From: Sphingobium boeckii
GTDB taxonomy: Bacteria; Pseudomonadota; Alphaproteobacteria; Sphingomonadales; Sphingomonadaceae
Assembly: GCF_014199215.1 (NCBI RefSeq)
Contig: NZ_JACIJC010000002.1
Location: forward strand, 620,001-684,000
Length of the DNA: 64,000 bases
Direction of reading: 5' to 3'
The notes under the pieces are model-generated. The model had not been told where the DNA came from and ran no database searches. It saw nothing but the letters and a program-made list of their open reading frames with translations. The stretch's first letter is position 1. The number at the start of each line of letters is the position of its first letter. A program made the translations under genes and the position numbers. Shown here one piece after another: positions 2,582 through 17,966 of the stretch.

Positions 2582-2657
2582 GCCGCCTTAGCTCAGCTGG
2601 TAGAGCAACTGATTTGTAATCAGTAGGTCATCCGTTCGAGTCGGATAGGCGGCACCA
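2582..2657 (+). tRNA. tRNA-Thr (anticodon TGT)
   Basis: Complete cloverleaf: acceptor stem GCCGCCT pairs with AGGCGGC, the D-arm reads GCTCAGCTGGTAGAGC, the anticodon stem ACTGA/TCAGT encloses TTTGTAA (anticodon TGT), and the T-arm is ATCCG-TTCGAGT-CGGAT. The CCA end is encoded. Its 3' half is the attachment site of the element that follows; because the repeat includes the whole 3' half, the gene remains intact after integration. Confidence 0.97.
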
Positions 2658-2658
2658 T
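2612..2658 (+). repeat. attL: 47-bp direct repeat within tRNA-Thr
   Basis: Identical over 47 bp to 17920-17966. It runs from the anticodon loop through the T-arm, acceptor strand and CCA to one base past the tRNA. The base before it differs (G here, A at the right copy), which defines the edge. Confidence 0.95.
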
Positions 2659-3264
2659 TGAAAACATTAGGAAATCTTAGATTTCCCCCCCTAATATTTG
2701 GCGAACTAAAGTTCGAAAGTAATCACGCGGTAAGCACGAGATTTTTTTAGCAAAGTCGCTCCAGCCCGGCGCTGGCTTCGTCTCGTTTTGGCACTCCGCG
2801 TTTTGAATTCGCCAACGTTATCGGAATTTTCCGATCATTCGCGGAAATGATTTCGGACCGTTTGCGATGCAACACCACAGTGTTTGATAATGGCTAAAAT
2901 TTCTGCCCGCCCGCCCGCCCGCGCTCCGTGTGTTCACATTAAGCCCAGCTTTTTGGAAGTAACTTCGGCGTTATAGCGTCGGCTTTGAGTGATGAATTTT
3001 TTGCATCCGGTTGCACGATGGTAGCTCGATCGTGCTACATTATGTAAGATGCTGCCAGCTTGGTTACAGTTTTTATGCGTGTACTTGTTTGGCTAATTTT
3101 TGAGGCCATATTGCTTTTACAGCAAGGAAGGTATTAAAGGCCATTCAAGCGGCCACGAATCTATCAGCAGTTTTGTTAACCTAATGGCAACGGAACTCAT
3201 GATAGAGTCGGTGGTATGTAACATTGCGTCTGCGTTTTGCACGACGAATGAGAAGGAGGCGAGT
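2659..3264. other. AT-rich left terminus of the element, no gene recognised
   Basis: About 600 bp of lower-GC sequence with no convincing coding frame. It holds a short palindrome (CGAACT-AA-AGTTCG, 2702-2715) and, 3 bp further, the GTAATCAC repeat pair. It probably carries integrase arm sites and the promoter for the gene at 3265. No other feature is recognised. Confidence 0.5.
2719..2737 (+). promoter_or_regulatory. GTAATCAC-N3-GTAAGCAC repeat near attL
   Basis: Two near-identical octamers separated by 3 bp, 60 bp inside attL. The same arrangement occurs at 17793-17811 near attR and, inverted, at 5073-5091; weaker versions are at 8865-8880 and 11667-11674. The placement near both ends suits integrase arm-type sites; the additional intergenic copies suit a regulator's operator. 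The role is inference; the repeat is directly visible. Confidence 0.55.
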
Positions 3265-3471
3265 ATGGAAATGAGTTCCGAGCGTAAGGCTCTCGCCGAT
3301 CGGTATGCACGCATGCAGGCCGAGGAGGGCCTTGTAGACGTTAAGTTTCTGCTGTCTAACCCCGCAGAGGCGACGACTGATGAAGTGTACCGCGAGGTGA
3401 ATGCCATGTATGAAGCACTTGAGCGCAAAGAAGCCAAGGTGCTGGATTTTGGTGACATCAGCGTACACTGA
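3265..3471 (+). CDS. Small hypothetical protein of the element
   Basis: A 68-residue protein. The ATG at 3265 is chosen because a strong Shine-Dalgarno (AAGGAGG) lies 5 bp before it; an in-frame start at 3100 exists but lacks a ribosome site and would add a non-protein-like extension. The product is hydrophilic and helical (RKALADRYARMQAEEG... DEVYREVNAMYEALERKEA) with no cysteine. It is followed by a strong terminator, so it is monocistronic. I do not recognise the family. Its position at the left end beside an ImmA-like gene could suit a small regulator, but no HTH is visible. Confidence 0.7.
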   Translation: MEMSSERKALADRYARMQAEEGLVDVKFLLSNPAEATTDEVYREVNAMYEALERKEAKVLDFGDISVH

Positions 3472-3492
3472 AACTTCTAAATATTGAAGAAG

Positions 3493-3521
3493 AGGCCTTA
3501 CTGCGGTAGGGCCTTTTTTTT
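3493..3521 (+). terminator. Rho-independent terminator
   Basis: A 9-bp stem (AGGCCTTAC / GTAGGGCCT, one G-T pair) with a 4-nt loop is followed by eight T residues. It ends the transcript of the small gene at 3265 and separates it from the gene at 3543. Confidence 0.9.
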
Positions 3522-3542
3522 GCCCGCAGTCGGTAAGGTTAT

Positions 3543-4184
3543 ATGAACGTCGAAAACAACAAATTGTGCTCAACGTATCGCAAGGTTCAGTTGCTCCAAC
3601 AGCATATGATGGCAGCTTGTCCTGGTCCCCAGGAGCCGACGTTGAGGATCATGGATCTTCGTTGGGCTATTCAAGACATGTACGCCCTGAAGATCGATAT
3701 GTTCGAGGTCTCTTTTGCCGGTACCTATTTGAAGGGCAAAGTAGAGCGATACGCTAACAATAGTGCGAGGGTCTTGGTTAGAGCCAGCCTCAGCGATGTC
3801 GAAAAGCGCTCAACTGCTGTCAAAGAGCTTTGTCATTTAGTCATCGACGAAAAGGAAGATTGGTCGCCGCTTGGTGTCAACACGATCAACGAGGTAATAA
3901 CGGACGCCTCGATGTTTGCCGCTGATGGGATCGGCCATACCAACCCCTCCGCGCCTTTGGTCTCTGAAGCGTTGGCAATCTTAGCCTCATCGGAACTTAT
4001 GTATCCGGGTGAGTACCACGCGGCTGATCAAACGAAGCTAGATCAACAGCAAACGACGCTGTCCGCTATTGCACTCCAGCACGAGGTGCCAGGCTATCTG
4101 ATCCAGCATGCCTTCACCAACCGCCCTCTCCGCGACAGAGTGTACGCGCAGATTGCTGCAGAGGTTAGCAGTAAAGCGGCGTAA
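3543..4184 (+). CDS. ImmA/IrrE-like protein with degenerate zinc motif
   Basis: A 213-residue protein with an AAGG ribosome site before ATG 3543. Residues 90-110 read STAVKELCHLVIDEKEDW, which resembles the helix carrying HExxH in ImmA/IrrE metallopeptidases ('AHELGHLLL'), but the first histidine is lysine (K94-E95-L-C-H98). Downstream 'APLVSEALAILASSELMYPGEY' and 'IALQHEVPGYLIQHAF' fit that family's layout (A-x-E-LL-x-P, then A-x-x-F-x-VP-x-x-L). ImmA-type peptidases cleave phage or ICE repressors to trigger excision. With one zinc ligand changed it may be inactive or bind metal differently. Base composition is lower GC than the chromosome, consistent with acquisition. Family assignment is moderate. 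Confidence 0.45.
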   Translation: MNVENNKLCSTYRKVQLLQQHMMAACPGPQEPTLRIMDLRWAIQDMYALKIDMFEVSFAGTYLKGKVERYANNSARVLVRASLSDVEKRSTAVKELCHLVIDEKEDWSPLGVNTINEVITDASMFAADGIGHTNPSAPLVSEALAILASSELMYPGEYHAADQTKLDQQQTTLSAIALQHEVPGYLIQHAFTNRPLRDRVYAQIAAEVSSKAA

Positions 4185-4224
4185 CGCGGACGCACCGCAG
4201 GCAAGCGTAATCTGCAGCCGTGCT

Positions 4225-4512
4225 TTAGCGCGGCACACAAAACGCCGTCACCCTCGCCGGCCCGTAAATCATCCCCCGCGTATTTGGCGGAGGCGCGACC
4301 TGGCGCCTAACTTCATCCCGTGCCCGCTGGCAAGACAACCCTGTCTTATATTCCGTTCGCGTGAACGCCGATCCGTCCGAGATCATGAGCGTATGAGGCC
4401 CAGGCCCCAACTTTTCGACCGGCGGCTTCTCCTGATACTTTTCCCACGGTCCAGCCTGACCGAGCGCCGCCATCGGCGTTATCATCAGCGCCGCACATAA
4501 AGCGATCCGCAT
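4225..4512 (-). CDS. Small secreted hypothetical protein
   Basis: About 95 residues. ATG at 4512 is preferred over GTG 4518 because GGGAGG lies 8 bp before the ATG but only 2 bp before the GTG. The N-terminus MRIALCAALMITPMAALGQA is a clear Sec signal peptide, cleaved after AxGQA or nearby. The mature protein is polar, with two cysteines (LSCQRA, AFCVP) that could form a periplasmic disulfide. I do not recognise the family. It points towards the plus-strand gene at 3543 and is probably cargo. Confidence 0.6.
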   Translation of the reverse strand: MRIALCAALMITPMAALGQAGPWEKYQEKPPVEKLGPGPHTLMISDGSAFTRTEYKTGLSCQRARDEVRRQVAPPPNTRGMIYGPARVTAFCVPR

Positions 4513-4576
4513 AATCACCCCCTCCCGGCCTCACCAATTTACCGATGATTCAGTGTCATACCGTAAAACGAACATT

Positions 4577-4891
4577 ATGCCTCGTAATAGATCACGTCAC
4601 CCAGGCCGATGGAGCCCGCCAGTCCGAAAGACCAGCGGCGCAGAGATGGCCTTGAAATATGGCCTCTTTGCCGTTGCCGGCGGATTGTTTATCGGTATTG
4701 GCGCCGTGCATATCGAGCGAGGCACCGACCGCCGCGCTAAGCTAGCCGCCCTCCCTCAAGGCTATGAGTTCAGTGGATGCGACGAGGTTAGAGCTGCCGG
4801 GTTGGCGCCCCTCCACGCTTCCGATCCTGGCTTCTCTCAAAGAATGGACGGCGATGGTGACGGAGTGGCATGTGAGCCATATTACCGCTGA
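4577..4891 (+). CDS. Excalibur calcium-binding domain protein
   Basis: About 104 residues; the start is uncertain (GTG 4553, ATG 4577 and ATG 4646 are in frame and none has a good ribosome site). A membrane or signal-anchor segment (YGLFAVAGGLFIGIGAVHI) precedes a C-terminal Excalibur domain: 'FSGCDEVRAAGLAPL' then 'RMDGDGDGVACEPYYR', with the DxDxDGxxCE calcium loop and paired cysteines. In other proteins this domain is attached to secreted nucleases and envelope proteins. Here it stands alone behind a membrane anchor, so it should face the periplasm. Its function is not known. Confidence 0.7.
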   Translation: MPRNRSRHPGRWSPPVRKTSGAEMALKYGLFAVAGGLFIGIGAVHIERGTDRRAKLAALPQGYEFSGCDEVRAAGLAPLHASDPGFSQRMDGDGDGVACEPYYR

Positions 4892-5231
4892 AGCTAGCAC
4901 CCCGGCACCGTGTTGAAAAATAGCAGCGCGGGCCAACACCAACCATGAACCTTACCGTGCGGATCAAATAACCCGCCATTCATGCTTCACAGCGCAGATT
5001 GCCGTCGCCGACCCTGCGGACGGTAGGCCACCGGGCTGATTGCGACTCTGCCCGGTGGCCGCTTGCGGGTCGGTGCTTACCCAGTGATTACCGGTGACGA
5101 CCCGTCCACGAGATTATCTCAAAGGAACGCCTAGAAGTAGGCCTCGCCCACTTCTGCACTTTCTAATCAGGGATTAGATGCTCAGATTGCACCACGCCGG
5201 TCGGCCTGGCACAATGCGGCAGGGGGATACT
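4892..5231. other. Intergenic region with hairpin and GTAATCAC pair
   Basis: It holds a perfect 11-bp inverted repeat with a 13-nt loop (GGCCACCGGGC at 5026-5036, GCCCGGTGGCC at 5050-5060) and no T-run. Next to it, at 5073-5091 on the minus strand, is GTAATCAC-TGG-GTAAGCAC, the same arrangement as at 2719. No coding frame is convincing. It probably contains the promoter of the gene at 5232. Confidence 0.55.
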
Positions 5232-5558: not shown

Positions 5559-5565
5559 ACGTCAG

Positions 5566-5868: not shown

Positions 5869-5885
5869 TGCCTAGCCCTCCCGAT

Positions 5886-6035: not shown

Positions 6036-6041
6036 AAAAAA

Positions 6042-6153: not shown

Positions 6154-6858
6154 ATGGCTAATGCCGCAATACGGGCGGAATCCGTCCTCATCAACACACC
6201 CTCCCCGCGCGTGCTAGAATGCACGATATTCCCGAGCCGACGCGCTATTATGGGCGCTATCGCTCTAGCCCCTGCCATCGCAGCGACGACTCTGCCCGCA
6301 TCCGCTACGATGAGCAGCGCTGCCTGGGACGCAGCGTTTGCCGATATGCAGCGTAAGAAAGCCGCCAGTGACGCCTACGATGATTATCTGAGCGAGCTTT
6401 GCGCCAGAATGAAGGCCAGCGCACCCGATGAGAATGCGATCGACTGGGAAGCGCTAGACGTGCCTCACAGGGCGCACATGCTCCACAGTGCTGATCTCGA
6501 TGAGTATGAGCGCAACTTTGTCGAATATGGGCATCTGTGGGGCGGAGCTGGGAGCAAAGCGCGTGGGGTTGCGGCCATCGAAAGCATCAGGACGTTCCGC
6601 GAGGCGAAAGCCGCCAACGCAGCCGCCCATGGATGGGACGAGGCGTTTGACCGCCAAGAAGCGCTGACGGAAGAATATAGCGCGGCCATCTCCAAGCTTA
6701 TCGAGATGCCAGCCCCGGATAAAGCCGCGCTGATGTGGAAATTGAATTACCTGTACGCGGACGAGGTGAGCGCCGGACATTCATCTGCGGCATATTGCGC
6801 TGCCTGGATTGGGGTTGTGATGGCCGACGCCGATCGCTTCCTTGGCGGGGAGGCTTGA
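6154..6858 (+). CDS. Hypothetical protein with Tat-like segment
   Basis: A 234-residue protein with AGGAG 8 bp before the ATG. Residues 28-52 (SRRAIMGAIALAPAIAATTL) look like a Tat or Sec signal with paired arginines, but it is preceded by a 27-residue extension. The rest is helical and rich in Trp, Asp and Ala (AAWDAAFADMQRKKAA, WEALDVPHRAHM, GWDEAFDRQEALTEEY). It has two repeat-like units around 'WDAAFADM' and 'WDEAFDRQ'. I recognise no family. It starts a tight three-gene cluster with 6862 and 7431. Confidence 0.6.
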   Translation: MANAAIRAESVLINTPSPRVLECTIFPSRRAIMGAIALAPAIAATTLPASATMSSAAWDAAFADMQRKKAASDAYDDYLSELCARMKASAPDENAIDWEALDVPHRAHMLHSADLDEYERNFVEYGHLWGGAGSKARGVAAIESIRTFREAKAANAAAHGWDEAFDRQEALTEEYSAAISKLIEMPAPDKAALMWKLNYLYADEVSAGHSSAAYCAAWIGVVMADADRFLGGEA

Positions 6859-6861
6859 GCC

Positions 6862-7431
6862 ATGCAACACATGACAGTCGAGCGGGCATCGGCCCGCGGC
6901 ATCGTCGCGTCGGCGCTCCCGGCACGTCTCGCCAGCTTTACGCCCGATCAGGAGCGGGCGTGGTTCACGCAGCGTGGTTACCGGGAAGCCGTGCCGCCCA
7001 TGCGGGAACGGGAGATCATCGACCAGTTGCAGACCTGCCAGACGCCCAGCCAATACCGGGCATGGTTGAACGCCACACAGGCTGAGCGGGCACGCGCTAC
7101 ACAAGGGCAGATCGAGCGCATCGAAGGAGAGCGGCTCAAACGAGAATCCTATTTCGCCGATCTGGAAAGCCGCACGCGCATCCGCGAGATTGTCGATCGC
7201 GTAAAGGCCACACCACGCCCTCGGCCCACGTCAGGGCAACGTGACGGGAAGTTGCTGGCCGAGGTTTTGGCCGCGATCGATCGTCACGGTTTGGCGGAAT
7301 CCCGATTTGGCCGTGAGGCGATCAACGATCCGCGTTGCGTCGAGGATCTGCGTAATGGCCGTCAGTTCAAGGCGCGCCTGTCAGCTCGGATCCGTGTCTT
7401 CATTGCCTCGCTCGACCGGGAGGCGGTGTAA
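6862..7431 (+). CDS. Hypothetical charged helical protein
   Basis: 189 residues, 3 bp after the stop of the previous gene and overlapping the next gene's ATG by one base (TAATG), so the three are translated together. The central part (SQYRAWLNATQAERARATQGQIERIEGERLKRESYFADLESRTRIREIVDRVKA) is long and helical, possibly coiled coil; the C-terminus is basic. There is no signal peptide. It is of unknown family; DNA binding or a structural role would fit the charge pattern but is not shown. Confidence 0.6.
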   Translation: MQHMTVERASARGIVASALPARLASFTPDQERAWFTQRGYREAVPPMREREIIDQLQTCQTPSQYRAWLNATQAERARATQGQIERIEGERLKRESYFADLESRTRIREIVDRVKATPRPRPTSGQRDGKLLAEVLAAIDRHGLAESRFGREAINDPRCVEDLRNGRQFKARLSARIRVFIASLDREAV

Positions 7432-7799
7432 TGGCCTCTCGGATCACCCTGGCCGGGCAAAGCCAGATCGTGGGCGCCCATCTGCCCGTTGCCGTGCTCC
7501 TATCAGCAATCCCCAGCCTGCCTCGCCATATTCTCGATCGGCTCGTCGAGCAGATGATTTGCCGCATGGACGACATGGACCCCAATCCCGACGAAGAGGA
7601 TAGCGAGACAGCCAGCCCGTGGGTCGATGGGGCCGGACGGTGGTCCGCGCCCTGGCCCGCCCCCTCAGGGCCATGGCACGAAGACGACGAAGATGGTCAT
7701 GACCGCGAGCTGGTAGAAGAACGCGAAATCGAGGATTACGAAGGCGGCGCGGCCGATATCGCTTTCGACGGTCTGTTTCGGGGCGAACTGACTGCCTAA
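7431..7799 (+). CDS. Acidic hypothetical protein
   Basis: 122 residues, translationally coupled to the upstream gene by a TAATG overlap. The N-terminal half is hydrophobic and helical (VAVLLSAIPSLPRHILDRLVEQMICRMD); the C-terminal half is strongly acidic (DPNPDEEDSE, WHEDDEDGHDRELVEEREIEDYEGG). Such an acidic tail is seen in DNA mimics, phage anti-restriction proteins and scaffolding-type proteins, but no specific family is recognised. It is the last gene before the terminator at 7886. Confidence 0.55.
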   Translation: MASRITLAGQSQIVGAHLPVAVLLSAIPSLPRHILDRLVEQMICRMDDMDPNPDEEDSETASPWVDGAGRWSAPWPAPSGPWHEDDEDGHDRELVEEREIEDYEGGAADIAFDGLFRGELTA

Positions 7800-7913: not shown

Positions 7914-7960
7914 ATGCATGACTTCCTGCGATGCTTGCCGAGGCGTTTTTCGGGGGGCGA

Positions 7961-8845
7961 ATGAACACAAGGGAGAAATTCGGCATTACGGGGGCAATTA
8001 TCGCCGTCGCCATTTTGTGCACTACCATTGGCCTTTACGGTCGCTCTCTTCTGTCACCTGCTGAGACCATCGCGAACCCGCCTGGTATGCCTGACTTTTG
8101 TCGAGTTAGCGTTAATGATCCACGATGCTCTGCAGCGGTTCAATGGAAGAGCGCGGACGCTGCTCGTGAAGCTGCGAACTGGGCTTGGTGGCAGCTGTGG
8201 ATTAGCGCTGCCGGCGTCGTTGGCCTGGGCATTACACTTTGGTTCAATTTCCGTGCCCTGCGCTTGGCCGAGCATGAATCCAACGAAACCAAGGATGCTT
8301 TGCAGATTGCGCGGGAGAACGCTGCTGGTGCTGCTCGTGCAGCGCAGGCCGCGAGCGAGGGCAACCAAATCGCAAGAGAGGCGATGCAGAAGCAGCTTCG
8401 ACCTTATGTTTATCTGGAGGATCTGCACGTCTCGATCACTCACCTGCTCTCGTACGATGCGCTGGCAGATTGTGGGACTGTAGAAATCGTGATCAAAAAT
8501 TATGGGCAGTCGCCGGCCAAAGATGTTTCCATGGTGGCCCAGGTCATCCTCGGGGGTTACTGGAGCGATCGGCCCGGTGTGGATTTGCAGAGCGCCGCGA
8601 GGATCAACTTTGCGGATATTCCGTCCGGGGCGGTGCGACGGCAAGGGGGATACTCAGCACTGGATATTAAACGCGCTCACCAGCAATTGACCGACGCCAC
8701 CGCAAGCATATTTGTGGAAGGCCAGATCCGGTACACCGACGCTTTTGGGAATACCTATTGGACGAATTTTCAGAGGGCACTGACCGGCGAAGATTATCAC
8801 ACTGGCCCGTCAGCGATCACGCCCCATTGGAATCAGGCAAAGTAG
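7961..8845 (+). CDS. Two-TM coiled-coil membrane protein, unknown
   Basis: A 294-residue protein. ATG 7961 is preferred to 7931 because of a GGGGG-type ribosome site. Order: membrane segment 1 (ITGAIIAVAILCTTIGLYG), a short loop with two cysteines (DFCRVSVNDPRCSAA), membrane segment 2 (WISAAGVVGLGITLWFNF), an amphipathic coiled coil (AEHESNETKDALQIARENAAGAARAAQAA), then a beta-rich soluble domain beginning RPYVYLED and containing 'IVIKNYGQSPAKDVSM'. This layout recurs in accessory regions of proteobacteria as an uncharacterised family. It stands alone after a terminator and before the ejection genes, so it is probably cargo; a defence role is possible but unsupported. Confidence 0.6.
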   Translation: MNTREKFGITGAIIAVAILCTTIGLYGRSLLSPAETIANPPGMPDFCRVSVNDPRCSAAVQWKSADAAREAANWAWWQLWISAAGVVGLGITLWFNFRALRLAEHESNETKDALQIARENAAGAARAAQAASEGNQIAREAMQKQLRPYVYLEDLHVSITHLLSYDALADCGTVEIVIKNYGQSPAKDVSMVAQVILGGYWSDRPGVDLQSAARINFADIPSGAVRRQGGYSALDIKRAHQQLTDATASIFVEGQIRYTDAFGNTYWTNFQRALTGEDYHTGPSAITPHWNQAK

Positions 8846-8972: not shown

Positions 8973-11069
8973 CTAATAGCCTCCGCGATTTTGGTTCATG
9001 TAAGCTTGCATGATCTTCTCGCGGTCGGGATCATTGCGCATTGCATCCGGCACCCTGACACGACCAGACCGGCCATTGCTCTCGAAGAAGAACTCACCCG
9101 GCCCGCCATCATTCGGCACCCACTTCATCAGCAAGCGATCCTGAATTTCGATGATCGTCTTATCGGCGATCACCTTACCAGGGTTTGCAGCCTGCCACGC
9201 GCCCACGTCGCGCATCACATCGCGCTCAAGCTCGTAGATCCTCGCACTTTGCTTCTGTACCTCGTCGCCCTTTTTGCCCGCGCTGGTCAGGCCAAGGGCC
9301 ATGCGTGCCGGTGTGAGGATGCCCTTGATGCGCGCATGCGTGATCTGCTTTGCGTCGCCGTCGCCCTTCATCGCGGAACGGCGCCAGGTAAGGTACGTCT
9401 TGAAATCGCCATCGCTGAGCTTGTTGCGGACATCCTCTGGTCGCATCATAAGAAAAACCGCAGGGTCGCCAGCATAGGCATCTGAGAGGGCGGTCATCGC
9501 CGCCATGTCGGTTTCCCGAGGCGCCGGCTTCCGGTTGCGCTCAGCGATTCCTTCGAACTGCGCGCGCTGCTGCGGCGACAGACGCTTCAATATGCCAGCG
9601 GGCAGTTGCGTGACGCGCGTGAAGCCCGCGCCGAGATTGTTCGATACCTCCCACGCATTGTCCGCTGCGGCTGCTTGCTCCCGCTTCAGCAGATTCTCAT
9701 CGCGCTGCACGCGACGATCGATCTCCGCTTTGACCCGCTCGATCTTTTCAAAGCTCCAGCCTTTCTGCCCCGCGATAAGATCGGCCCGCGCATACCATTC
9801 GGCTAAGTCGTGCTCCCGTGGAGCCTGTTGTGTGCCGGCGTGATCGGTGCGCTCGATGAACTTGGCGACATAATCACGCGTTTCGGCGGGCATGTGTTTT
9901 ATCCAGCCCTCCCCGCCCTTCTTGAGTGCGGCTCTCATAGCACCAGGCCCAGCGTTGTAGGCGGCAGCAGCCATCAAAGGATCGCCAAAATCTTTTAGCT
10001 GCTTACGGAAATACGCTTTGCCAATCGCGGAATTGTAATCGGCATCAGATTTGAACTTGTTTGCATCCCATGTCAGCCCTGCCAACCTTGCCGCTTCAGG
10101 TCCGGTCGCGGGCATGACCTGTGCAATCCCCGTTGCGCCCTTCGGAGACGTGAGAGGCCGACCGCCTTTTCCAAATTGCCTGCCGCGGCTCTCCTGCGTG
10201 ACAATGGCTTCGAACATGTCATCAACCGAAAGCAAGGCGCCATTACCCTCTGTGCCGCTCGTCGGAGGCGTCAGCACGGCGCTAAGTGAATCCACCTCTC
10301 TCGCAGCGTCCCGCGCAGCCATGGGCTCCTTGAGCGCTTGGGTGAGGCGCAGTCGATCGGTGTAGACGAGACTGGAATCGTTCGTGCGCACATAGTCGGC
10401 GGCGGCGTCGATGTTGTCCGCTGCCAGAAGCTGATCAGCCGTTGCGGCGTGGATCCCCGAAACGAACTTCCGTTTCTCGATGCCGGACACCTCGGCCGAC
10501 CAGCCCTTGGACTGAGCCAGTGCATCGAGGGACGCCAACCCGGTATCGATGTGTTTTTGGGTAAGCTCCGGATCTCCATAACTCGCGATGGCGCTGTCAC
10601 CGGAATCTGTCGCGCGCGCCTTACTGACCAACTCCCCCTCGATCTTCAGCTGGCCGAGCGCATGAGCACCGATGTCGTTGAGGTAAGTGGCCTCATATGG
10701 CGCCACCGAATCCTCATACATTGCGCGCATCCGCGGCGAGGTGGCGTCCTTCGCTATCCTTTTGCGTAATTCCTTGAGGTTTTTCTCCGTCTGTAAGCGG
10801 GTCTCCAATGCGTTCACGCCTTCGAGCGCCGTGAACTCACCGACCAAGGGTTTGGCCTCGGCCTGATACTGCAGCGCCAGCCGCTTGCGCATGGTATCTT
10901 CGAATTGCAGGCTGATCTGATCCTGGATCTCAGCCGTATCGGCGAGCGTGTTGCCTGCCTGGCGCAAGCCTTCACCAAGGCCATCGCTCAATTCGACTGC
11001 GCGGACGGCCCCAACTGGCCTCGTGGCAGCGCGAACAGCATTCCCCGGAGACACTGGAACTTGCGGCAT
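8973..11069 (-). CDS. T7 gp16-like virion core protein with transglycosylase domain
   Basis: A 698-residue protein starting in a TGATG overlap with the gp14-like gene. The N-terminal 280 residues are helical. Residues 284-408 form a lytic transglycosylase SLT domain: catalytic Glu293 in TQESRG, then SPKGATGIAQVMP, AYNAGPG (370-376), and ETRDYVAKF. The C-terminal 290 residues are helical and charged. In T7-like podoviruses this architecture is the internal core protein that is ejected at infection, locally opens peptidoglycan and helps form the DNA channel. It is much shorter than T7 gp16 (about 1,300 residues), but similar to reduced versions in other podoviruses. The gp14-then-gp16 order matches T7, with no gp15 homologue between. 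Confidence 0.8.
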   Translation of the reverse strand: MPQVPVSPGNAVRAATRPVGAVRAVELSDGLGEGLRQAGNTLADTAEIQDQISLQFEDTMRKRLALQYQAEAKPLVGEFTALEGVNALETRLQTEKNLKELRKRIAKDATSPRMRAMYEDSVAPYEATYLNDIGAHALGQLKIEGELVSKARATDSGDSAIASYGDPELTQKHIDTGLASLDALAQSKGWSAEVSGIEKRKFVSGIHAATADQLLAADNIDAAADYVRTNDSSLVYTDRLRLTQALKEPMAARDAAREVDSLSAVLTPPTSGTEGNGALLSVDDMFEAIVTQESRGRQFGKGGRPLTSPKGATGIAQVMPATGPEAARLAGLTWDANKFKSDADYNSAIGKAYFRKQLKDFGDPLMAAAAYNAGPGAMRAALKKGGEGWIKHMPAETRDYVAKFIERTDHAGTQQAPREHDLAEWYARADLIAGQKGWSFEKIERVKAEIDRRVQRDENLLKREQAAAADNAWEVSNNLGAGFTRVTQLPAGILKRLSPQQRAQFEGIAERNRKPAPRETDMAAMTALSDAYAGDPAVFLMMRPEDVRNKLSDGDFKTYLTWRRSAMKGDGDAKQITHARIKGILTPARMALGLTSAGKKGDEVQKQSARIYELERDVMRDVGAWQAANPGKVIADKTIIEIQDRLLMKWVPNDGGPGEFFFESNGRSGRVRVPDAMRNDPDREKIMQAYMNQNRGGY

Positions 11070-11623
11070 CAGGCCGGCCCTCTCGATCCGATTGCGCCAT
11101 ACGCGTCACCAAAATTCTGAGCTGAACCTCCGACGCTGCCCTTGAGCTTTCCGTACTGGGTTGCGCCGCCGAGAATTGAAGATCCCATATCGAACACGCC
11201 CTTTACGATCGCGCCTTTAGCGGCGAGTTTCGCTGACTTGCCCTGTGCACTGTAATTAGCGGCTTCAATCTCGAATCCCCTCGCCTCGCGCACGGTGTTC
11301 TGCGCGATCGTCGCAGCATCCTCCTGGCCGTACATCGCGGTATCGCCAACAAGATCGGCTGCGGACCCAAACGAGATATCCAGCCCGTTAGCGGCCATCG
11401 CGGCACGCTGGGAACCCATGGTGGCCGACACTTTGCGATAGTGCTGCTGTTGCTCGATGTTGCCGCGTTCCATGGCATCCATCGCAGAACGATTGGCCTC
11501 ATCGCGATTGACAGCCGCCTGAGCCGCCTGTCCCTTAGCTTGGGCGCTCGCCATGAGGGCAGAATAACCCTGACCAGCGGCTGCAACGCCGGCAGCGACA
11601 AGCGCAAGTGCGGGGCCACACAT
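11069..11623 (-). CDS. Virion core protein, T7 gp14 family
   Basis: A 184-residue protein beginning MCGPALALVAAGVAAAGQGY: a glycine/alanine-rich hydrophobic N-terminus, then a helical body with 'QAAVNRDEANRSAMDAMERGNIEQQQHYRKVSATMGSQRAAMAANGLD', and a second hydrophobic C-terminal stretch. This is the usual signature of podovirus gp14-type internal virion proteins, which insert in the outer membrane during DNA ejection. Translation is coupled to the downstream transglycosylase gene. A candidate operator (inverted repeat plus GTAATCAC) lies 24-51 bp upstream. It is intact, which is notable in an element without capsid genes. Confidence 0.8.
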   Translation of the reverse strand: MCGPALALVAAGVAAAGQGYSALMASAQAKGQAAQAAVNRDEANRSAMDAMERGNIEQQQHYRKVSATMGSQRAAMAANGLDISFGSAADLVGDTAMYGQEDAATIAQNTVREARGFEIEAANYSAQGKSAKLAAKGAIVKGVFDMGSSILGGATQYGKLKGSVGGSAQNFGDAYGAIGSRGPA

Positions 11624-11790: not shown

Positions 11791-12165
11791 CTAATTGGCC
11801 TCAAATTCGTCGAGAATATGCGCCGCTTGACGCTGCACGTTGGCATTCACCGACTTGGCGAAATCACTCAGCCCCGTGCGCTGGACCTGAAACCACGCAT
11901 CCCGGCCGCGGATGTTGCTGACATCGATCCCGACGCCGAATAGCGCGCCGCCAACCAAGGTTGCTTCGCTGAGCTGGGAAGGGTGAAGCGCATCCCGGAA
12001 ATTCACGAAACCATCGGTCGTTGGAAAACCGGAGAAATGTGGCTTGATCACGTCAAGCGCGGCATCGGTCGCCTCGCTGAATTTCGTATAGGCTTTGCCC
12101 AATACGGCGACAGCCTCCTCGATCTCCACCGATGCGTCCTCCCGGCGCTTGAGCAGCTTGTCCAT
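11791..12165 (-). CDS. Hypothetical protein of the element
   Basis: 124 residues with a weak GAAGG ribosome site directly before the ATG; the frame is open 45 codons further upstream without a standard start, so the 5' end may be eroded. The sequence is helical at both ends (KLLKRREDASVEIEEAVAVLGKAY; DFAKSVNANVQRQAAHILDEFEAN) with a hydrophobic middle (ATLVGGALFGVGIDVSNIRG). I recognise no family. It lies between the HGGxSTG gene and the ejection genes on the same strand. Confidence 0.5.
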   Translation of the reverse strand: MDKLLKRREDASVEIEEAVAVLGKAYTKFSEATDAALDVIKPHFSGFPTTDGFVNFRDALHPSQLSEATLVGGALFGVGIDVSNIRGRDAWFQVQRTGLSDFAKSVNANVQRQAAHILDEFEAN

Positions 12166-12536: not shown

Positions 12537-12740
12537 TCACGTTTTGGCAACCTGTGACCTTTCCGACCGCGCCCAACGCAATCGAAGGTTTGCCAGCGCC
12601 GCTTTCCGACCCGCCTCGGTCTTCGGCCCCGTGCTCAGTCCACCGTGAAACCGACAGCGGCCATTGGCGAATATAGTTTTCACCCTGCACATCTTCCCCG
12701 ATCTGGTTGTGGCGCGGCACATCGTTTTCTTTCTTGGCAT
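12537..12740 (-). CDS. HGGxSTG-motif small protein
   Basis: A 67-residue basic protein. ATG 12740 is chosen because GAAAGGA lies 9 bp before it; longer in-frame starts lack a ribosome site. It begins MPRKKTMCRATTRSGKMCRV and contains the hallmark 'CRFHGGLSTGPKTEAGRKAALANLR', i.e. CRxHGGxSTGPKTxEG. This motif family is common in proteobacterial genomes and phages and typically has cysteines before the HGG, suggestive of metal or nucleic-acid binding. No function is established. It is downstream of the primase-helicase gene on the same strand. Confidence 0.75.
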   Translation of the reverse strand: MPRKKTMCRATTRSGKMCRVKTIFANGRCRFHGGLSTGPKTEAGRKAALANLRLRWARSERSQVAKT

Positions 12741-12827
12741 TTTTCCATCCTTTCGATCTGTTCGGAACTCCATCCCACACGCACGCACACCCGCGCGTAC
12801 TGGTCCGCTGAGCATAGAATTTCCCCA

Positions 12828-14861
12828 TCACCCTGCCCCGCCGCTCATCGATGAAACCGCGAAAGGATCTGGATCATCCTCTTCTTCATGGGAGGGCGCG
12901 TCGGCCCCAAGGGACGCGCCCGGTATATATTTATATATAGGCTGTGTGTTTCCGGTCGTTTTCTGCGGGTTTCCGGAGGTTTCCGGTTGCTGTTTCCGGG
13001 AGGTTTCCGGAGAGGTTTCCGGTTGCCCAGGGGTAGCTTCCCGGAGCCCGTGAATGTCTTTCCCTTCACCCGTATCGCGATAAAGAAAGCCTCGCTCGAT
13101 CGCCCCAATTCGATAGAGACGGTCCATTGCGTCAGCCAGGCGCTTCCGGTTCAGACCCTTGGCTTGCGGCATGACTTCGAATTGCTTGGGCGCATAGTTT
13201 GCCGCGGTGGGCTTTTCACTCACCTGCCGCCGCTGATCATTCCGCTCAGCCAAGCATGCCAGGAAGATCGCATTGTCGGCATTGGTGCGCGCGACCGCAG
13301 CAATCTCCTTCGCAGTGTCGGCTGGCAAATCCTTGTCCCGCACGAGCGCGAAATCATGCCAGCGAAAGGCGATATCCTCGCCAGCGCGGGCGTAATTGGC
13401 CTTCCCCAGCGACATGCGACGGATGTCGGGATCAGCATCGTCCGAACGCTCCATCAGAACCTGCGAGCGTACTGCGTTCAGCCAGGCGGTGGAGCCGGAG
13501 TAGCTATCGCCAGTCTTATTCCTGTGCGCAATCAACAGCACCGTAACGTCGAGATCGCCACACAATTGGTAGAGCAAATTGATGAATGCGGTGACCTGGC
13601 TGCGGTCGTTCTCGTTCCCCGCGAAGAGGTGGGCCACATTGTCCAGGGTGACCAGCTTTGCGCCCGTCTGGACGATCGTCGCCCGCAGGAGAGCATAGGC
13701 GGGGGTGGAGCGCATTCGGCCATCGTGTTCGAACGTGGCCAGCTCGTTATTCATCCGCCCACGCAGGCTTACGATATGCAGTTGCCCAGCAAGGGCATGA
13801 AGGGTGGTGCCGATCGCTTCGGCGATCTTGGCCAGCCGCCAGTGATTTTCGCGATTGTCGTCCTCGGCAGTGATGTAGAGCGCAGGCCCCGCAATCACAT
13901 CCATACCGAGGAATTTCCGGCCGGCAGCGGCACAAGCGCTTATCTGCAATGCCAAGGTCGATTTGTTGGTTCCGCCGTCACCCGTGATGATGACCACGTC
14001 CTCGCGCGGGATGAATGGCGCCATGAGAAATGTCTTCGGCGTCGGCTTCGTTGCCGCCCAGAGGTTCAGGTCGGCCAGCTCGAACGTTTCCACGGGCTCA
14101 GTAAGTCCGCGATGCGCCAACGCCTGTAGATCGTCGGCAGTGCCACCCCACTCCATGATGTCCTCGCCCTCGGCGAGACCTGGTAGCTCAATGATAAGAC
14201 ATTCAGCAGCGACACTGTCCAACTTGGATTGCAGCGATCCTGCGATGCGCGCGCCAGCCTTATCGTTATCGGGCAGGATGATTACCGTGCGATCAGCGAA
14301 CACGCTCAGATCGCCCGGAAGATCCTTGCTGCTGGTGGCGACAAAGCCCCACGATGCCAGCTTGTCGGCTTTTTGCTCGCCTTCCGCGATATAGACCGGC
14401 ACATCGAGCGCCGCCGCGAGGATATCAGGCAAGCGATAAGGCAACGGATCGCAACCACGGTCCGCCCGCCATCCGCCGACACCGTCTGGATGCTGCCATT
14501 GAAAGGTCTTACTGCCATCGGGTTTATCGATCCGAACCTTTCGGCACACCGTAACGCCATCCGCATCCTGAAACTCGAAATAAGTCCGGCCAGGCTCGCG
14601 AGGTTTCCGCTTTGGAGCGAGCGCGGTCCGCGGGCGAGACGGTTCCCATTTCGGCAACACGCCCTTGGCCCGCAACTCGTCCTTAATCGCAAGCGGATCG
14701 CCACCGTTTTCCGAATGGATCAGCACGCCGTCAGGCGCAGTGGGTGCGAGGCTCGCCCAGCTTCCACGATCCTTTTTGCTATGTCCCGGCGTTGGGAACA
14801 TCGCACGCGTGCCGGAGACCTCCCCGCCCATCGCTGCGGCTATTTTTGCTAACTGGCTCAT
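12828..14861 (-). CDS. Toprim-primase / RecA-like helicase (RepA-type)
   Basis: A 677-residue replication protein. Residues about 90-245 contain a Toprim-like domain (Glu160 in YIAEGEQKAD; D198/D200 in IILPDNDKAG). Residues 265-500 form an AAA_25/RepA-like ATPase: Walker A GDGGTNKST (294-302), 'ITAEDD' (330-334), Walker B LVTLDN (D407), and 'LLIAHRNKT' (442-450). The order resembles the primase-helicases of phage satellites and plasmids. The tail (about 605-640) carries PETS-type repeats whose DNA forms an iteron-like array. Its start overlaps the upstream small gene by 4 bp (ATGA). It probably drives autonomous replication of the excised element. Confidence 0.8.
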   Translation of the reverse strand: MSQLAKIAAAMGGEVSGTRAMFPTPGHSKKDRGSWASLAPTAPDGVLIHSENGGDPLAIKDELRAKGVLPKWEPSRPRTALAPKRKPREPGRTYFEFQDADGVTVCRKVRIDKPDGSKTFQWQHPDGVGGWRADRGCDPLPYRLPDILAAALDVPVYIAEGEQKADKLASWGFVATSSKDLPGDLSVFADRTVIILPDNDKAGARIAGSLQSKLDSVAAECLIIELPGLAEGEDIMEWGGTADDLQALAHRGLTEPVETFELADLNLWAATKPTPKTFLMAPFIPREDVVIITGDGGTNKSTLALQISACAAAGRKFLGMDVIAGPALYITAEDDNRENHWRLAKIAEAIGTTLHALAGQLHIVSLRGRMNNELATFEHDGRMRSTPAYALLRATIVQTGAKLVTLDNVAHLFAGNENDRSQVTAFINLLYQLCGDLDVTVLLIAHRNKTGDSYSGSTAWLNAVRSQVLMERSDDADPDIRRMSLGKANYARAGEDIAFRWHDFALVRDKDLPADTAKEIAAVARTNADNAIFLACLAERNDQRRQVSEKPTAANYAPKQFEVMPQAKGLNRKRLADAMDRLYRIGAIERGFLYRDTGEGKDIHGLREATPGQPETSPETSRKQQPETSGNPQKTTGNTQPIYKYIPGASLGADAPSHEEEDDPDPFAVSSMSGGAG
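12923..13022. other. Candidate replication origin: six iterons beside AT-rich tract
   Basis: Six copies of GTTTCCGG start at 12948, 12969, 12979, 12992, 13003 and 13015 (spacing 10-21 bp). They adjoin an alternating A/T tract at 12923-12940. Iterons next to an AT-rich unwinding region are the usual form of origins bound by element-encoded initiators, and the array lies inside the primase-helicase gene. The alternative is simple expansion of a codon repeat encoding PETS. Origin function is inferred. Confidence 0.45.
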
Positions 14862-15109: not shown

Positions 15110-15306
15110 GATGCACCGCCAGTCCGATCGATTATCTTCCAGCCGTGCGTCATCCGCAGGCCACCCGCCCAGCCGCGTGCCTCGCGGTAAGTTGCGAACT
15201 CGCGATCCCAATCCTTATCGGCCAAGGGCGGTTTAATACGGACATCAAATCCCACGCCGAAAACTTCGTGTGCGATTTCGATTGAGTGCTGTGATGTCTG
15301 GTTCAC
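15106..15306 (-). CDS. Small hypothetical protein, paralogue of the 15569 gene
   Basis: 66 residues from a GTG at 15306 that overlaps the previous stop as GTGA; a GTG at 15315 is an alternative. The core 'FDVRIKPPLADKDWDREFATYREARGWAGGLR' aligns residue for residue with 'YHIRVVPPLEDVNLDADRPTYRQARLYANALR' of the gene at 15569-15769, so the two are paralogues separated by one gene. Predicted form is two strands, an acidic loop and a helix. Function is unknown. Confidence 0.6.
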   Translation of the reverse strand: MNQTSQHSIEIAHEVFGVGFDVRIKPPLADKDWDREFATYREARGWAGGLRMTHGWKIIDRTGGAS

Positions 15307-15572
15307 GACGCCCACGCCCCCTCATCAAATCCTTCGGGGGCGGTTCCCTCAATTGGCGCGCCATAGCGATGAGCAGCGGCAAGCGCATTTTCCCAAGCCA
15401 GGAATGCGCAGTTGCCGGTGTGAAGATGCAGGTATTTGCTGGCGTCGATTGCAAAGCCATCAGGCTCGCCCCAAAACAGCCACACGCTACGTTCGTCCAC
15501 CTTCACGCGCAGGTTTGCCCGCAGCAGCACATCCCGCTCCCATGGGCGGAAGTTGAGAATCACGGCGGTCAT
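15303..15572 (-). CDS. Small hypothetical protein
   Basis: 89 residues, starting in an ATGA overlap with the gene at 15569. It begins MTAVILNFRPWERDVLLRAN and ends with 'FLAWENALAAAHRYGAPIEG'. The pattern (short strands, aromatic-rich middle 'SVWLFWGEPDGFAIDASKYLHLH', then a helix) is loosely like its neighbours' strand-loop-helix form. I recognise no family. It is translated as part of the overlapping gene stack. Confidence 0.6.
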   Translation of the reverse strand: MTAVILNFRPWERDVLLRANLRVKVDERSVWLFWGEPDGFAIDASKYLHLHTGNCAFLAWENALAAAHRYGAPIEGTAPEGFDEGAWAS

Positions 15573-15769
15573 GCGTCTTCACCCGATGTCAGATCGCGCA
15601 CGTCCCACAGATAGCTCAGCCGCAGCGCGTTGGCGTAAAGGCGGGCCTGGCGGTACGTTGGCCGATCGGCATCCAGATTGACGTCCTCTAAGGGCGGCAC
15701 GACGCGGATATGATAGCCGCGGATATTGGCCATGGGCGCGATGTGGATAGTGTGGCGCTGCCTCTCCAT
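15569..15769 (-). CDS. Small hypothetical protein, paralogue of the 15106 gene
   Basis: 66 residues; its ATG overlaps the preceding stop by one base. It shares the motif V-x-PPL-x-D-x(10)-TYR-x-AR with the gene at 15106-15306. Retention of two divergent copies in a compact stack suggests they are selected, perhaps as small regulators or inhibitors, but no function can be assigned. Confidence 0.6.
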   Translation of the reverse strand: MERQRHTIHIAPMANIRGYHIRVVPPLEDVNLDADRPTYRQARLYANALRLSYLWDVRDLTSGEDA

Positions 15770-16044
15770 TACGCAGCCTCCGGATCATCGCCGAGGATTG
15801 TCAGATGGCGCTCGACCCAAGAACTATCGATCATGGGGATGCCGAGCGACCGTGAGCGCGCAGCGGCCACCCGGAAAGCCTCCGAGTAATCCACGAAGAC
15901 GCCGCCGAAAATCACAGACTCATTTGCCAGAGTGATCTGCACCCGGAATTCGCCCGGCGTGTAAGGATTGTCCATCAGCGTGATCCGGTCGGGCGCAAAT
16001 TCCGGCCCCGTCTCGCCTGGGTGCATTGAAAACACTTCACCCAT
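15769..16044 (-). CDS. Small hypothetical protein, first of the overlapping stack
   Basis: 91 residues from ATG 16044, which has GGAGG 6 bp before it. A longer in-frame start at 16170, directly after the alpA stop, has no ribosome site. Its 'PGEFRVQITLANESVIFGGVFVDYSEAFRVAAARSRSLG' resembles, at lower similarity, the strand-loop-(D/T)YxEA-helix pattern of the two paralogues downstream. It leads the stack of small genes that runs into the primase-helicase. Confidence 0.6.
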   Translation of the reverse strand: MGEVFSMHPGETGPEFAPDRITLMDNPYTPGEFRVQITLANESVIFGGVFVDYSEAFRVAAARSRSLGIPMIDSSWVERHLTILGDDPEAA

Positions 16045-16170
16045 GATCGGCCTCCACAATATTTGCGCGAGCGATGCTGGCAGTGTATGAGAAGCGTGAC
16101 CCGGTGCCTCCAAGCAAAGGTCCGACGCCATCCCTAGCCGGATGGCGTTTTCGTTTGGGCGGGCCGACAT

Positions 16171-16371
16171 TCATGCGGCGACCGTTTGGGAGGTGCTGTT
16201 AACGACATGGGCCGCGACCCAAGCATCGAGGTCGGAAACGCGATAGCGCACCGCCTTACCCATTTTCAAAAAAGGCGGCCCCCCACCATAAATACGACGA
16301 TTGGTTAGGGTCTTTTTAGACAGCCCGAGCCGCTTAGCGGCTATCGCTGTATCGACAACAGTTTCGTCCAT
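16171..16371 (-). CDS. AlpA/MerR-like excisionase-type DNA-binding protein
   Basis: 66 residues from ATG 16371, with GAGG 7 bp before it (a TTG at 16386 is less likely). It has the HTH_17/AlpA pattern: 'DTAIAAKRLGLSKKTLTNRRIYGGGPPFLKMGKAVRYRVSDLDAWVAAH', i.e. winged helix with the conserved PPFxKxGxxVRYxxxDLDxW. Such proteins act as excisionases or activate integrase and replication genes in P4-like elements. It lies between the integrase and the replication stack, its usual place. Confidence 0.85.
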   Translation of the reverse strand: MDETVVDTAIAAKRLGLSKKTLTNRRIYGGGPPFLKMGKAVRYRVSDLDAWVAAHVVNSTSQTVAA

Positions 16372-16494
16372 CTTCTTGCCTCGCAATTATTGGCGACGGC
16401 AATCCAGATATCAGGTTTAATTTTGCTTTGTTCGACGTTCCACCAAGTTCCACTACCCTGCAGTCCCTTGACGGCCCCCTATGTGCTCGAAAGT

Positions 16495-17778
16495 CTAAGC
16501 ATTCGCTTGGACCGGCATCGGGATAACGTTTGTCGTATCTCCAGCTACAAGCGACCGCTCAATATGCACCGCCCAGGCATCGAGCGCGGCCCGCTTCTCA
16601 GCCTTCCAATCATGGCGCTGATAGACGCCGGCAATCCCCGACTTCGATCCGCTCAAGTGATTTAGCACAGCCTCGGTTACCTCAAACCGAACACCTAGAC
16701 GCTGCAGCCCAGTCGCGACCGTGCGGCGCAGATCGTGTAGTTTCCAATGCGGGACATCCTCGGCTTCCTCGCCGCGCTCCTTAGCCTCTTTCGCTCCTAT
16801 TTCTGCCATCGCCTTATCGATGCGGGTTTTCGCACGTGAATGCCCAGACACCGAAGTTTCGCCAGTTGTCGTGAACACGAAGCCACGCCGCGGCCATGTG
16901 TCGCCTTTTGCCATCCCATCCAGCTCGGCAATCGCCAGCGCGCTCAAGGGGCATTCATGGCCATCCTTGTTCTTGCTGCGGCTTCCAGGCAGCGACCACA
17001 TGGCACTGGCGCGGTCCAGTTCCTTCCAGTCCAAGCCGGACACTTCCTCGAGACGCTTGCCCGTCGAGATAAGCAACCGGATCAACGGGCCAAATGGATA
17101 ATCCATCTTCCCAGATGTAATCCACGCCAGTCTCAATTCTCCATCATCCAATACTCTATCGCGCGACTGCGGCAGGGGCGGCGCTTCCATCCCGGTCAAC
17201 GGAGATTCCTTTATGTCGCCCTCGCTAATTGCCCAATTAAACATGCGCCGAAGGAACGCGAACAGGTTGCGGCGGGTTGCGCCTCTCTTTTTGATCTTCT
17301 CTTGGTCAAGGACAGCGCGCATATCGGCGCGGGTTATGGTGTTGATCGGCTTGTCACCTAAAACCGGATTGGCATATCGCGTTAACGTCGCGAGCGCATC
17401 GGCGTGAGAGGCCGGCCACTTAATCTTCAAGCACTGTTCGGAAAACCGACTAAGGTAGACACGAAAGGCCAGATCGACCGCCTGGCGCTGCCTATCCCGC
17501 TTATCCTGAACGATATCCAATCCCTGCCCCACCAGCACCGCGAGGCGCTTTGCCTCCTTCCGCGCATCGTCAGGAGTCAGATTGCCGTGCTTGCCCATGG
17601 TGACGCGCTGGGTCCTGGCTCCGCGCCCGCCCAGTCGATACTGGAACACATAGGATTTGGCGCCTGCCGTGGTCACCTTGAGGCCAAAACCCTTCACCTC
17701 GTCGTCCCACAAAAATTGCTCAGACGCGCCCTTCGCCAGCGCATCGACTGACCGTTTTGTGATCCTACCAATTGCCAT
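16495..17778 (-). CDS. int: P4-type tyrosine integrase
   Basis: A 427-residue integrase with GGAGAG 7 bp before its ATG. The N-terminus (1-95) is the DUF4102/arm-binding domain typical of P4-like integrases (WDDEVKGFGLKVTTAGAKSYVFQYR). The catalytic domain has Arg242 (STGKRLEEV), HDLR (348-351) and the nucleophile Tyr386 (GVYQRHDW). All key residues are present, so it should be active. It is transcribed away from attR, 141 bp inside it, and integrates at the 3' end of tRNA-Thr(TGT). The GTAATCAC pair is directly upstream of its start. Confidence 0.95.
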   Translation of the reverse strand: MAIGRITKRSVDALAKGASEQFLWDDEVKGFGLKVTTAGAKSYVFQYRLGGRGARTQRVTMGKHGNLTPDDARKEAKRLAVLVGQGLDIVQDKRDRQRQAVDLAFRVYLSRFSEQCLKIKWPASHADALATLTRYANPVLGDKPINTITRADMRAVLDQEKIKKRGATRRNLFAFLRRMFNWAISEGDIKESPLTGMEAPPLPQSRDRVLDDGELRLAWITSGKMDYPFGPLIRLLISTGKRLEEVSGLDWKELDRASAMWSLPGSRSKNKDGHECPLSALAIAELDGMAKGDTWPRRGFVFTTTGETSVSGHSRAKTRIDKAMAEIGAKEAKERGEEAEDVPHWKLHDLRRTVATGLQRLGVRFEVTEAVLNHLSGSKSGIAGVYQRHDWKAEKRAALDAWAVHIERSLVAGDTTNVIPMPVQANA

Positions 17779-17792
17779 TTTACCGCTCTCCA

Positions 17793-17811
17793 GTAATCAC
17801 GCAGTAATCAC
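17793..17811 (+). promoter_or_regulatory. GTAATCAC-N3-GTAATCAC repeat near attR and integrase start
   Basis: Two perfect GTAATCAC octamers 3 bp apart, 15 bp upstream of the integrase ATG and 108 bp inside attR, in the same orientation as the copy near attL. Arm-type integrase sites or an integrase operator would both fit. Confidence 0.55.
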
Positions 17812-17919
17812 CGTAGCGGGTATCAGGGGGAACATCAAGGTAACTGGGGGTACGACTCATCTAGGCTTTCAGCCAGTTATCGCCGACACATCGGCAGAAA
17901 CGCTTAGGCATACCGTCTA

Positions 17920-17966
17920 ATTTGTAATCAGTAGGTCATCCGTTCGAGTCGGATAGGCGGCACCAT
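17920..17966 (+). repeat. attR: 47-bp direct repeat of the tRNA-Thr 3' half
   Basis: Identical to 2612-2658. It contains only the 3' half of the tRNA and is not a functional gene. It marks the right boundary of the element. Confidence 0.95.

Follow-up and report, generated by a model that had tools for sequence, protein, structure and literature searches.

A candidate phage satellite in Sphingobium boeckii that carries podophage-type DNA-ejection genes

We have analysed a 15.3-kb integrated element of Sphingobium boeckii (positions 2612-17966 of the window, by which we mean the whole stretch of 64,000 nucleotides examined) and find that it carries two adjoining genes for phage DNA-ejection proteins. 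The element sits at a tRNA-Thr (TGT) gene identified with ARAGORN (2582-2657, plus strand), and the 3' end of this gene is found at both borders: the attachment (att) copy at 2609-2658 is identical at 49 of 50 positions to that at 17917-17966 (both plus strand), the last 47 being perfect, so the 47-bp att repeat of the original prediction is borne out by repeat comparison. Read on the minus strand from the right end, the genes encode an integrase, an AlpA-like helix-turn-helix (HTH) protein, small open reading frames (ORFs), a primase, an HGGxSTG protein, a further small ORF, a gp14-like protein and a protein with an SLT transglycosylase domain. The tRNA side holds about 6 kb of cargo, mainly on the plus strand and mainly without a function by homology.

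The gp14-like gene (11069-11623, minus strand) encodes an internal virion protein of 184 amino acids (aa) that matches T7_gp14 of Pfam (PF24072, E-value 7.8e-7) and phrog_418 (1.3e-34). It overlaps by 1 nt the gene that follows it (8973-11069, minus strand), whose 698-aa product is an ejection protein with an SLT domain (PF01464, 1.4e-12) that matches phrog_10475 over residues 2-696 (5e-61). Both genes are intact and overlapping, as had been predicted, and their products match these internal virion families at full length and lie in phage gene order. The same two genes are adjacent in BPP-1, PfDIW6 and prophage G122, followed there by a gene of 2,039 to 2,225 aa, and the 1-nt overlap between gp14 and the next gene is common to the element, PfDIW6, phiV10 and prophage G122. 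No giant gp16-slot gene follows the SLT protein in the window element, in which, by gene order, the gp14 and gp15 slots are filled and the gp16 slot is empty; the SLT protein is positionally gp15 (bbp11). The label gp16-like, first given to it on the strength of its transglycosylase domain, does not hold, the gp16-slot gene of about 2,000 aa being absent. Nor does the proposed T7-type assignment, as the closest relatives belong to BPP-1/PfDIW6-type (or BPP-1/epsilon15-type) podophages. The closest phage records of the SLT protein are of the BPP-1 and PfDIW6 types, and those of gp14 form a mixed list topped by Pseudomonas phage AF and phiV10-type phages; on these records a T7-like helper was rejected.

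The SLT protein is 30% identical to a protein of prophage G122 and, through its SLT domain, also matches tail and other virion families in PHROGs. Its residues Glu293-Ser294, which we take to be the SLT catalytic motif, are invariant in 5 aligned relatives and nearly invariant in 20. An AlphaFold model built from 20 aligned sequences (mean predicted local distance difference test score, pLDDT, 79.8; predicted template modelling score, pTM, 0.41) places long helices around the SLT domain. With Foldseek, its best matches are Slt lytic transglycosylases in the PDB and, among predicted viral structures, an uncultured Caudovirales protein with an LT_GEWL domain (1.4e-26). Searches of solved structures with the gp14 profile and the C-terminal profile of the SLT protein returned nothing useful, and the full SLT-protein profile found lytic transglycosylases only, with no sequence relation to solved T7 core chains. 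The gp14-like protein is 79% identical over residues 18-161 to that of phage contig L230; between the two, dN is 0.167 and dS about 2.0, which is near saturation, and the window protein has 12 private amino-acid changes to 10 in L230, or 15 to 9, depending on the outgroup (L231 or L232), so that the window branch has not clearly evolved the faster of the two. With dS saturated in this comparison, gp14 looks to be under purifying selection and does not look like a pseudogene, and most of the divergence may predate capture. The decay (dN/dS near 1) named beforehand as telling against a satellite is not seen in gp14, the gene for which it was computed.

We searched the element with 18 virion references, comprising terminase, portal, major capsid protein (MCP) and tail proteins from BPP-1, PfDIW6, phiV10, element G148 and prophage G017c, together with the scaffold-position protein of G017c as the 18th. 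None matches at E<=0.01, whereas the same references match prophages G017a, G122 and G017c 14, 13 and 13 times, respectively (5 of the 18 being G017c's own). In PHROGs, the scanned ORFs, to which our PHROGs and Pfam statements refer throughout, include no head or tail gene besides the two ejection proteins, weak matches to small terminase subunit (TerS) profiles, and the matches that the SLT protein owes to its SLT domain, aside. The predicted absence of terminase, portal, capsid and tail genes is thereby upheld.

The remaining minus-strand genes include the backbone of the element, and here too the original reading of a P4-type integrase and an AlpA-like protein agrees with Pfam and PHROGs. 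The tyrosine integrase (16495-17778, minus strand, 427 aa) matches Arm-DNA-bind_3 (1.1e-14) and Phage_integrase (1.3e-10), and the AlpA-like HTH protein or excisionase (16171-16386, minus strand) matches HTH_17 (4.9e-7), the excisionase family phrog_66 (1.1e-8) and, weakly, the TerS profile phrog_57 (3.5e-4). The 677-aa protein at 12828-14861 (minus strand), predicted to be a Toprim/RecA primase-helicase, is supported as a primase by AAA_25 (1.7e-35) and phrog_239 (5e-28), while its Toprim part is weak (PF13155, 4.6e-3, under Pfam's cut-off). The HGGxSTG protein (12537-12815, minus strand; NF041373, 8.7e-17; phrog_6177, 8e-10) weakly matches the TerS profile phrog_10899 (6e-3), a weak hint of a TerS-like role. 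Between it and gp14 lies a small ORF (11791-12165, minus strand) whose homolog in G057 (phmmer, 2e-6) immediately precedes a gene with weak similarity to the SLT protein (1.6e-4); a proposed homology of this ORF to ORF 20559-21116 of element G017b found no support in sequence comparisons and was rejected. Primase relatives at E<=1e-30 occur in 20 of 298 family genomes, the element's own included, and one on the 15-kb IMG/VR contig L084 is 65% identical. The primase family also occurs in elements with head genes: by PHROGs, an MCP gene lies beside one G036 primase and a large terminase subunit (TerL) gene beside that of G088, and by reading of the sequence only, with no profile, TerL, MCP and portal genes can be named in L084, L085, G148 and a second G036 element. 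Regions of 38 kb surrounding gp14 in G122, G057, G008, G011, G017a and G339 contain no match to the window primase.

A second such element, G017b, lies in another genus of the family. It is 10.7 kb long, is bounded by exact 46-bp repeats of the 3' end of tRNA-Lys, and encodes an integrase, a short HTH protein similar to the annotated AlpA of phiV10 (8.5e-6), an O-like replication protein (1.3e-9), a TerS-like protein (PHROG 2538, 6e-6), two more genes and a 698-aa SLT ejection protein (PHROG 10475, 1.2e-69 for the 594-aa part scanned); it has no gp14. The same chromosome, in genome G017, holds two BPP-1-like prophages, G017a and G017c. The ejection proteins of G017b and G017c are identical in their first 30 residues and 48% identical over 243 aa, with no similarity detected beyond; the G017b protein has an SLT domain and a BPP-1-type C-terminus, and the G017c protein has neither. 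In addition, the product of the gene before the G017b ejection protein (L054:467-1207) shares a C-terminal motif with the scaffold-position protein encoded between portal and MCP in G017c (tblastn, 1e-5; phmmer, 3.6e-5), and might possibly be a capsid-size factor. G017b could be what a satellite adapted to the G017c prophage looks like. We note that the gp15-slot protein of G017a has, by reading only, an M23-type peptidase stretch where the SLT domain would be; cell-wall domains seem to be exchanged within the gp15 slot.

A gp14-profile scan of genome contigs returned 23 loci, 20 of which have BPP-1-type head or tail genes in the fetched stretch; L221 ends at gp14, and L226 (Magnetospirillum aberrantis) and L217 (a metagenome-assembled genome of Rhodocyclales) show no head or tail genes. 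Both of the latter start with an integrase, followed by excisionase/AlpA-like genes (PHROG 66 in L217, a homolog in L226) and a primase. They have backbone genes in common, with three small proteins at 57%, 37% and 49% identity and gp14 at 44%, and differ in their ejection modules. That of L226 is of the phiV10/epsilon15 type, with PHROG 418 (gp14), PHROG 992 (863 aa, end to end), PHROG 1145 (part of a 576-aa protein) and PHROG 684 (816 aa, end to end), whereas L217 encodes gp14, a 552-aa gp15-slot protein (PHROG 10475, first 273 residues) and a 2,224-aa gp16-slot protein (PHROG 9880). Upstream of gp14, L226 also encodes a homolog of the BPP-1 cement protein (Bbp16, 2e-10; PDB 3j4u, 'cementing protein', 4.5e-5) and a 103-aa protein whose homologs (51-86% identity) lie just upstream of the portal gene in 23 of 80 viral loci. 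Phages arrange these genes as small protein, portal, MCP, cement, tail and gp14, and L226 as cement, small protein and gp14, an order that a single deletion would not produce but deletion with rearrangement could. The position of the L226 small protein recalls that of T7 genes 6.7 and 7.3. The products of these T7 genes are ejected with the core (PMC11784390). A 45-bp perfect direct repeat in L226 (844-888 and 2249-2293) resembles part of tRNA-Leu, each copy lying just upstream of an integrase-like gene, as if two elements had inserted in turn; tRNA-Leu itself was considered as the L226 att site and rejected, there being no repeat.

A possible fifth case is G084, a 22.6-kb element at tRNA-Leu with an 18-bp stretch common to both ends. 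It shares with the window element the primase (50% identity), a weakly similar HGG-type protein (2.7e-4) and two cargo genes, and encodes a 1,037-aa protein resembling (30% over 302 aa) the product of a Rhizobium phage RHph_I1_23 gene that sits between the structural genes and a cell-wall hydrolase gene. This protein matches PHROG 5880, of unassigned function (5e-32), and has a weak match (8.5e-4) to PHROG 2534, 'released from the phage upon host infection'. None of the 17 terminase, portal, MCP and tail references matches any of the five elements (window, G017b, L226, L217 and G084), and the scaffold-position reference matches only G017b among them (3.7e-4).

Such elements are uncommon in the sampled genomes, and each is unlike the others. 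The family samples comprised at most 397 genomes of a larger group (397 for gp14, 298 for the primase), and it is for these that the family counts speak. A gp14 gene is present in 7 of 397, and the six besides that of the window are all accompanied by head or tail genes in the surrounding region. Outside the element's own genome, the primase occurs in 19 genomes and gp14 in 6, and no genome belongs to both groups. The exact set of integrase, alpA, primase, HGGxSTG, gp14 and SLT genes was found nowhere else in the genomes searched, and the tRNA gene differs per element where known, so the idea that the same gene order would recur at tRNA-Thr finds no support in these samples. Since the SLT domain swamps genome searches (295 of 397 genomes matched), we used the C-terminal profile of the SLT protein instead, whose matches number 6 among 396 genomes sampled from the order and 3 among 367 from the class, the element's own genome being in each count. 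The other matches in the order (G122, G504, G599, G559 and G478) are phages with tail genes; in the class, G974 lies at a contig end and G814 is a weak match on an 11.9-kb contig without a match to the references. Among viral contigs, 78 of 79 new loci from the gp14-profile search (best 80 of 134) have head or tail genes, L281 ending at gp14, and so do all 80 from a second search (best 80 of 202); IMG/VR is biased toward contigs with hallmark genes, so these counts are no measure of rarity. Pattern scans gave no match for L226 gp14 alone among viral contigs, or for the SLT protein alone among genome and viral contigs. In one phage contig, L176, about 2.7 kb separate a gp15-slot gene from an integrase gene, beyond which lies a primase gene; a giant ejection gene was not found there.

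As to its surroundings, the element has a GC content of 0.578, compared with 0.642 in the left flank and 0.577 in the next 19 kb rightward. Four other members of the genus were searched; none has a match to gp14 or the primase, and in each of them tRNA-Thr adjoins a relative of the left-flank gene (44-82% identity). The plus-strand cargo includes a 213-aa ORF at 3543-4184 with a weak M78/IrrE-like match (PF06114, 3.3e-4, just under Pfam's cut-off), an ORF with an Excalibur domain at 4553-4891 (PF05901, 3e-15), two ORFs with homologs in the G084 element at 6154-6858 and 7431-7799 (phmmer, 2.4e-17 and 3.3e-7), one with a weak homolog on contig L085 at 6862-7431 (phmmer, 2.3e-7), and a 304-aa ORF at 7931-8845 with homologs in podophage-prophage regions of G504 and of G084 contig 6 (phmmer, 6e-9 and 1.7e-10). 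Beyond the right border, a third, weaker att-like copy of the tRNA-Thr 3' end (86% identity) is found at 37361-37411, and suggests that 17967-37411 is a second island in tandem; its genes look catabolic (a GMC oxidoreductase, a gluconate dehydrogenase subunit, a TonB receptor, an AMP-binding enzyme, an acyl-CoA dehydrogenase and a TetR protein), with a HipA-like gene close to its end.

We consider it an even call whether the window element is an integrative satellite of a BPP-1/epsilon15-type podophage that fits its own ejection proteins into helper virions; excision, packaging and incorporation are what we infer. Judged by homology, its gene content provides for integration and self-replication and falls short of a full virion set, as is general for satellites. 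In such a scheme AlpA, which is named as a key regulator of the activation of phage-inducible chromosomal minimalist islands (PICMIs; PMC10803314), would switch the element on when a helper phage is active, the integrase would excise it and the primase would copy it. Because no head, portal or tail gene was found in the element, the particle must come from the helper, which would supply head, portal, tail and lysis functions as well as the gp16-slot protein. The satellite gp14 and gp15 would be built into the core of new virions, replacing those of the helper or mixed with them. Work on T7 places gp14 and gp15 in the internal core and describes them, once ejected, as spanning the outer membrane and entering the periplasm (PMC11784390); as they act after ejection, the satellite versions would do their work not in the current cell but in the one infected next, where they would form the outer-membrane and periplasmic part of the DNA conduit and cut peptidoglycan. 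The gain could be access to cells in which the helper's conduit is blocked, for instance through prophage-encoded exclusion or by a different cell wall. The case of P22 gives a reason for a satellite to carry ejection proteins: prophage SieA blocks DNA injection, escape mutations fall in ejection proteins, and the ejection genes of HK620 make P22 partly resistant to SieA (PMC10883804). By contrast, the 80alpha ejection protein gp44 is, according to PMC7290940, dispensable for transduction of Staphylococcus aureus pathogenicity islands (SaPIs). We put forward more tentatively, as a doubtful generalization, that a class of satellites across Alpha- and Betaproteobacteria may re-arm hijacked podophage virions with its own DNA-ejection machine and so enter cells closed to the helper; within this proposed class the range would run from one docking-compatible protein up to an entire module, with one case that has a cement protein.

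Several observations weigh against a satellite. The window element keeps two of the three core genes, and its own genome contains no BPP-1-like portal (by a query that finds one in G017 and in G084) and no giant ejection protein (for a query without a positive control), so no resident helper is known for it; a matching candidate helper was found only in G017. None of the L226 ejection proteins is encoded by the distant podophage-like portal and tail region present in the L226 genome, the 1,037-aa protein of G084 lacks a relative in the podophage-like region located elsewhere in that genome, the L217 genome has no portal match, and the outer ends of L226 and L217 are undefined. Moreover, the gene set differs from case to case, as does the site where known, so convergence on remnants is possible, and the cement protein means that ejection proteins are not the sole virion genes in L226; the claim that they are the only structural genes holds for the window element and not for L226. 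Foldseek matches of the SLT protein to T7 core and ejectosome chains are weak (7eyb_I, E 0.35; 6yt5_A, 0.85; 7k5c_B, 1.1), the dN/dS value is a pairwise one for gp14 that does not isolate the window branch, and the evidence is of sequence.

Much of this would be expected if a BPP-1-like prophage, or a prophage-satellite recombinant joined at the primase, had recently lost its head, tail and lysis genes. Full BPP-1-like prophages occur in the same family, the order and 1-nt overlap of gp14 and gp15 are those of full phages, the absence of the third ejection gene is an outcome that random loss could give, and no helper was found in the genome. Such a reduction would have to account for a primase that resembles those of satellite-type elements and has no match near the six family gp14 loci, for the low dN/dS of gp14, for the recurrence in G017b, L226 and L217, and for the non-phage gene order of L226, which deletion with rearrangement could give; we regard it as rather unlikely. 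A satellite appears better supported, mainly by the recurrence, the L226 gene order and the match between G017b and G017c. The original preference for a satellite over a reduced prophage therefore gains from three other such elements, a weaker fifth (G084) and the L226 order, and loses in that the exact gene set was not found again.

Alternatively, gp14 and gp15 could be decoys that co-assemble with the helper core and spoil helper virions, protecting the host population with no role in entry. The partial sets of the window element and G017b would suit this, and the helper-identical N-terminus and different C-terminus in G017b fit a dominant-negative design, but the Glu of the SLT motif is kept in the window protein, and L226 and L217 keep larger ejection modules than poisoning should need, which makes interference improbable in our view. 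It is more improbable still, and by some way, that the pair is kept for a host anti-phage or cell-wall function unrelated to virions: several cargo genes without an assigned function do lie beside it, but the virion-protein homology is full-length, the overlap is operon-like and in phage order, and PADLOC found no match among 10 cargo and small ORFs, a set outside which gp14 and the SLT protein lie.

What is new here, if the satellite reading is correct, is a phage satellite whose virion genes chiefly serve DNA ejection. Among the matches listed in open-licence PMC literature, outside which subscription journals mostly lie, no satellite with ejection proteins is described; the marine Charybdis elements, as portrayed in PMC12324425, differ from the window element, and PMC11389934 describes known satellites as taking over packaging and the assembly of capsids. 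A satellite equipped with DNA-entry machinery would mean that satellites intervene at a further, new stage, and could explain why the cell ranges of satellites and helpers differ. The G017b and G017c proteins would then provide a natural experiment separating a virion-docking part (the identical N-terminus) from a host-facing part (the exchanged C-terminus).

The window element resembles phage-inducible chromosomal islands (PICIs) and their capsid-forming counterparts (cfPICIs) in combining an integrase, an AlpA-like regulator and a primase in a small element, and its primase family recurs, within the same bacterial family, in elements that have head genes. It differs in that no terminase, portal or capsid gene was found and ejection proteins are present instead, which sets it outside the cfPICIs. 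P4-like satellites carry capsid-size (Sid) and Psu/Delta genes, which no scanned ORF of the element matched in general Pfam and PHROGs scans, no search having been aimed at these families. The PICMIs of Vibrionaceae, as PMC10803314 describes them, are similar in having few genes, AlpA with replication functions and no capsid remodelling genes, but adjoin fis and encode three core excision and replication proteins, whereas the window element is at tRNA-Thr and is therefore no PICMI; their abstract mentions no virion proteins, and the window element has two. Like Bordetella phage BPP-1 (Rauchvirus), Pseudomonas phage PfDIW6 (Purivirus) and Escherichia phage phiV10 (Uetakevirus), it has a gp14-slot gene followed by the next gene of the ejection module, with the overlap of PfDIW6 and phiV10 and an SLT protein as in BPP-1 and PfDIW6. 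Those, however, are full phages with head, tail and at least one further ejection-module gene; where a BPP-1-like podophage has terminase, portal, MCP, tail and three ejection genes, the element has the gp14 and gp15 slots only. Finally, in T7, whose core consists of gp14, gp15 and gp16, the transglycosylase resides in gp16 (PMC8954989), while in the window element it is carried by the gp15-slot protein; the window gp14 matches Pfam's T7_gp14, and a similar role is expected in the two systems.

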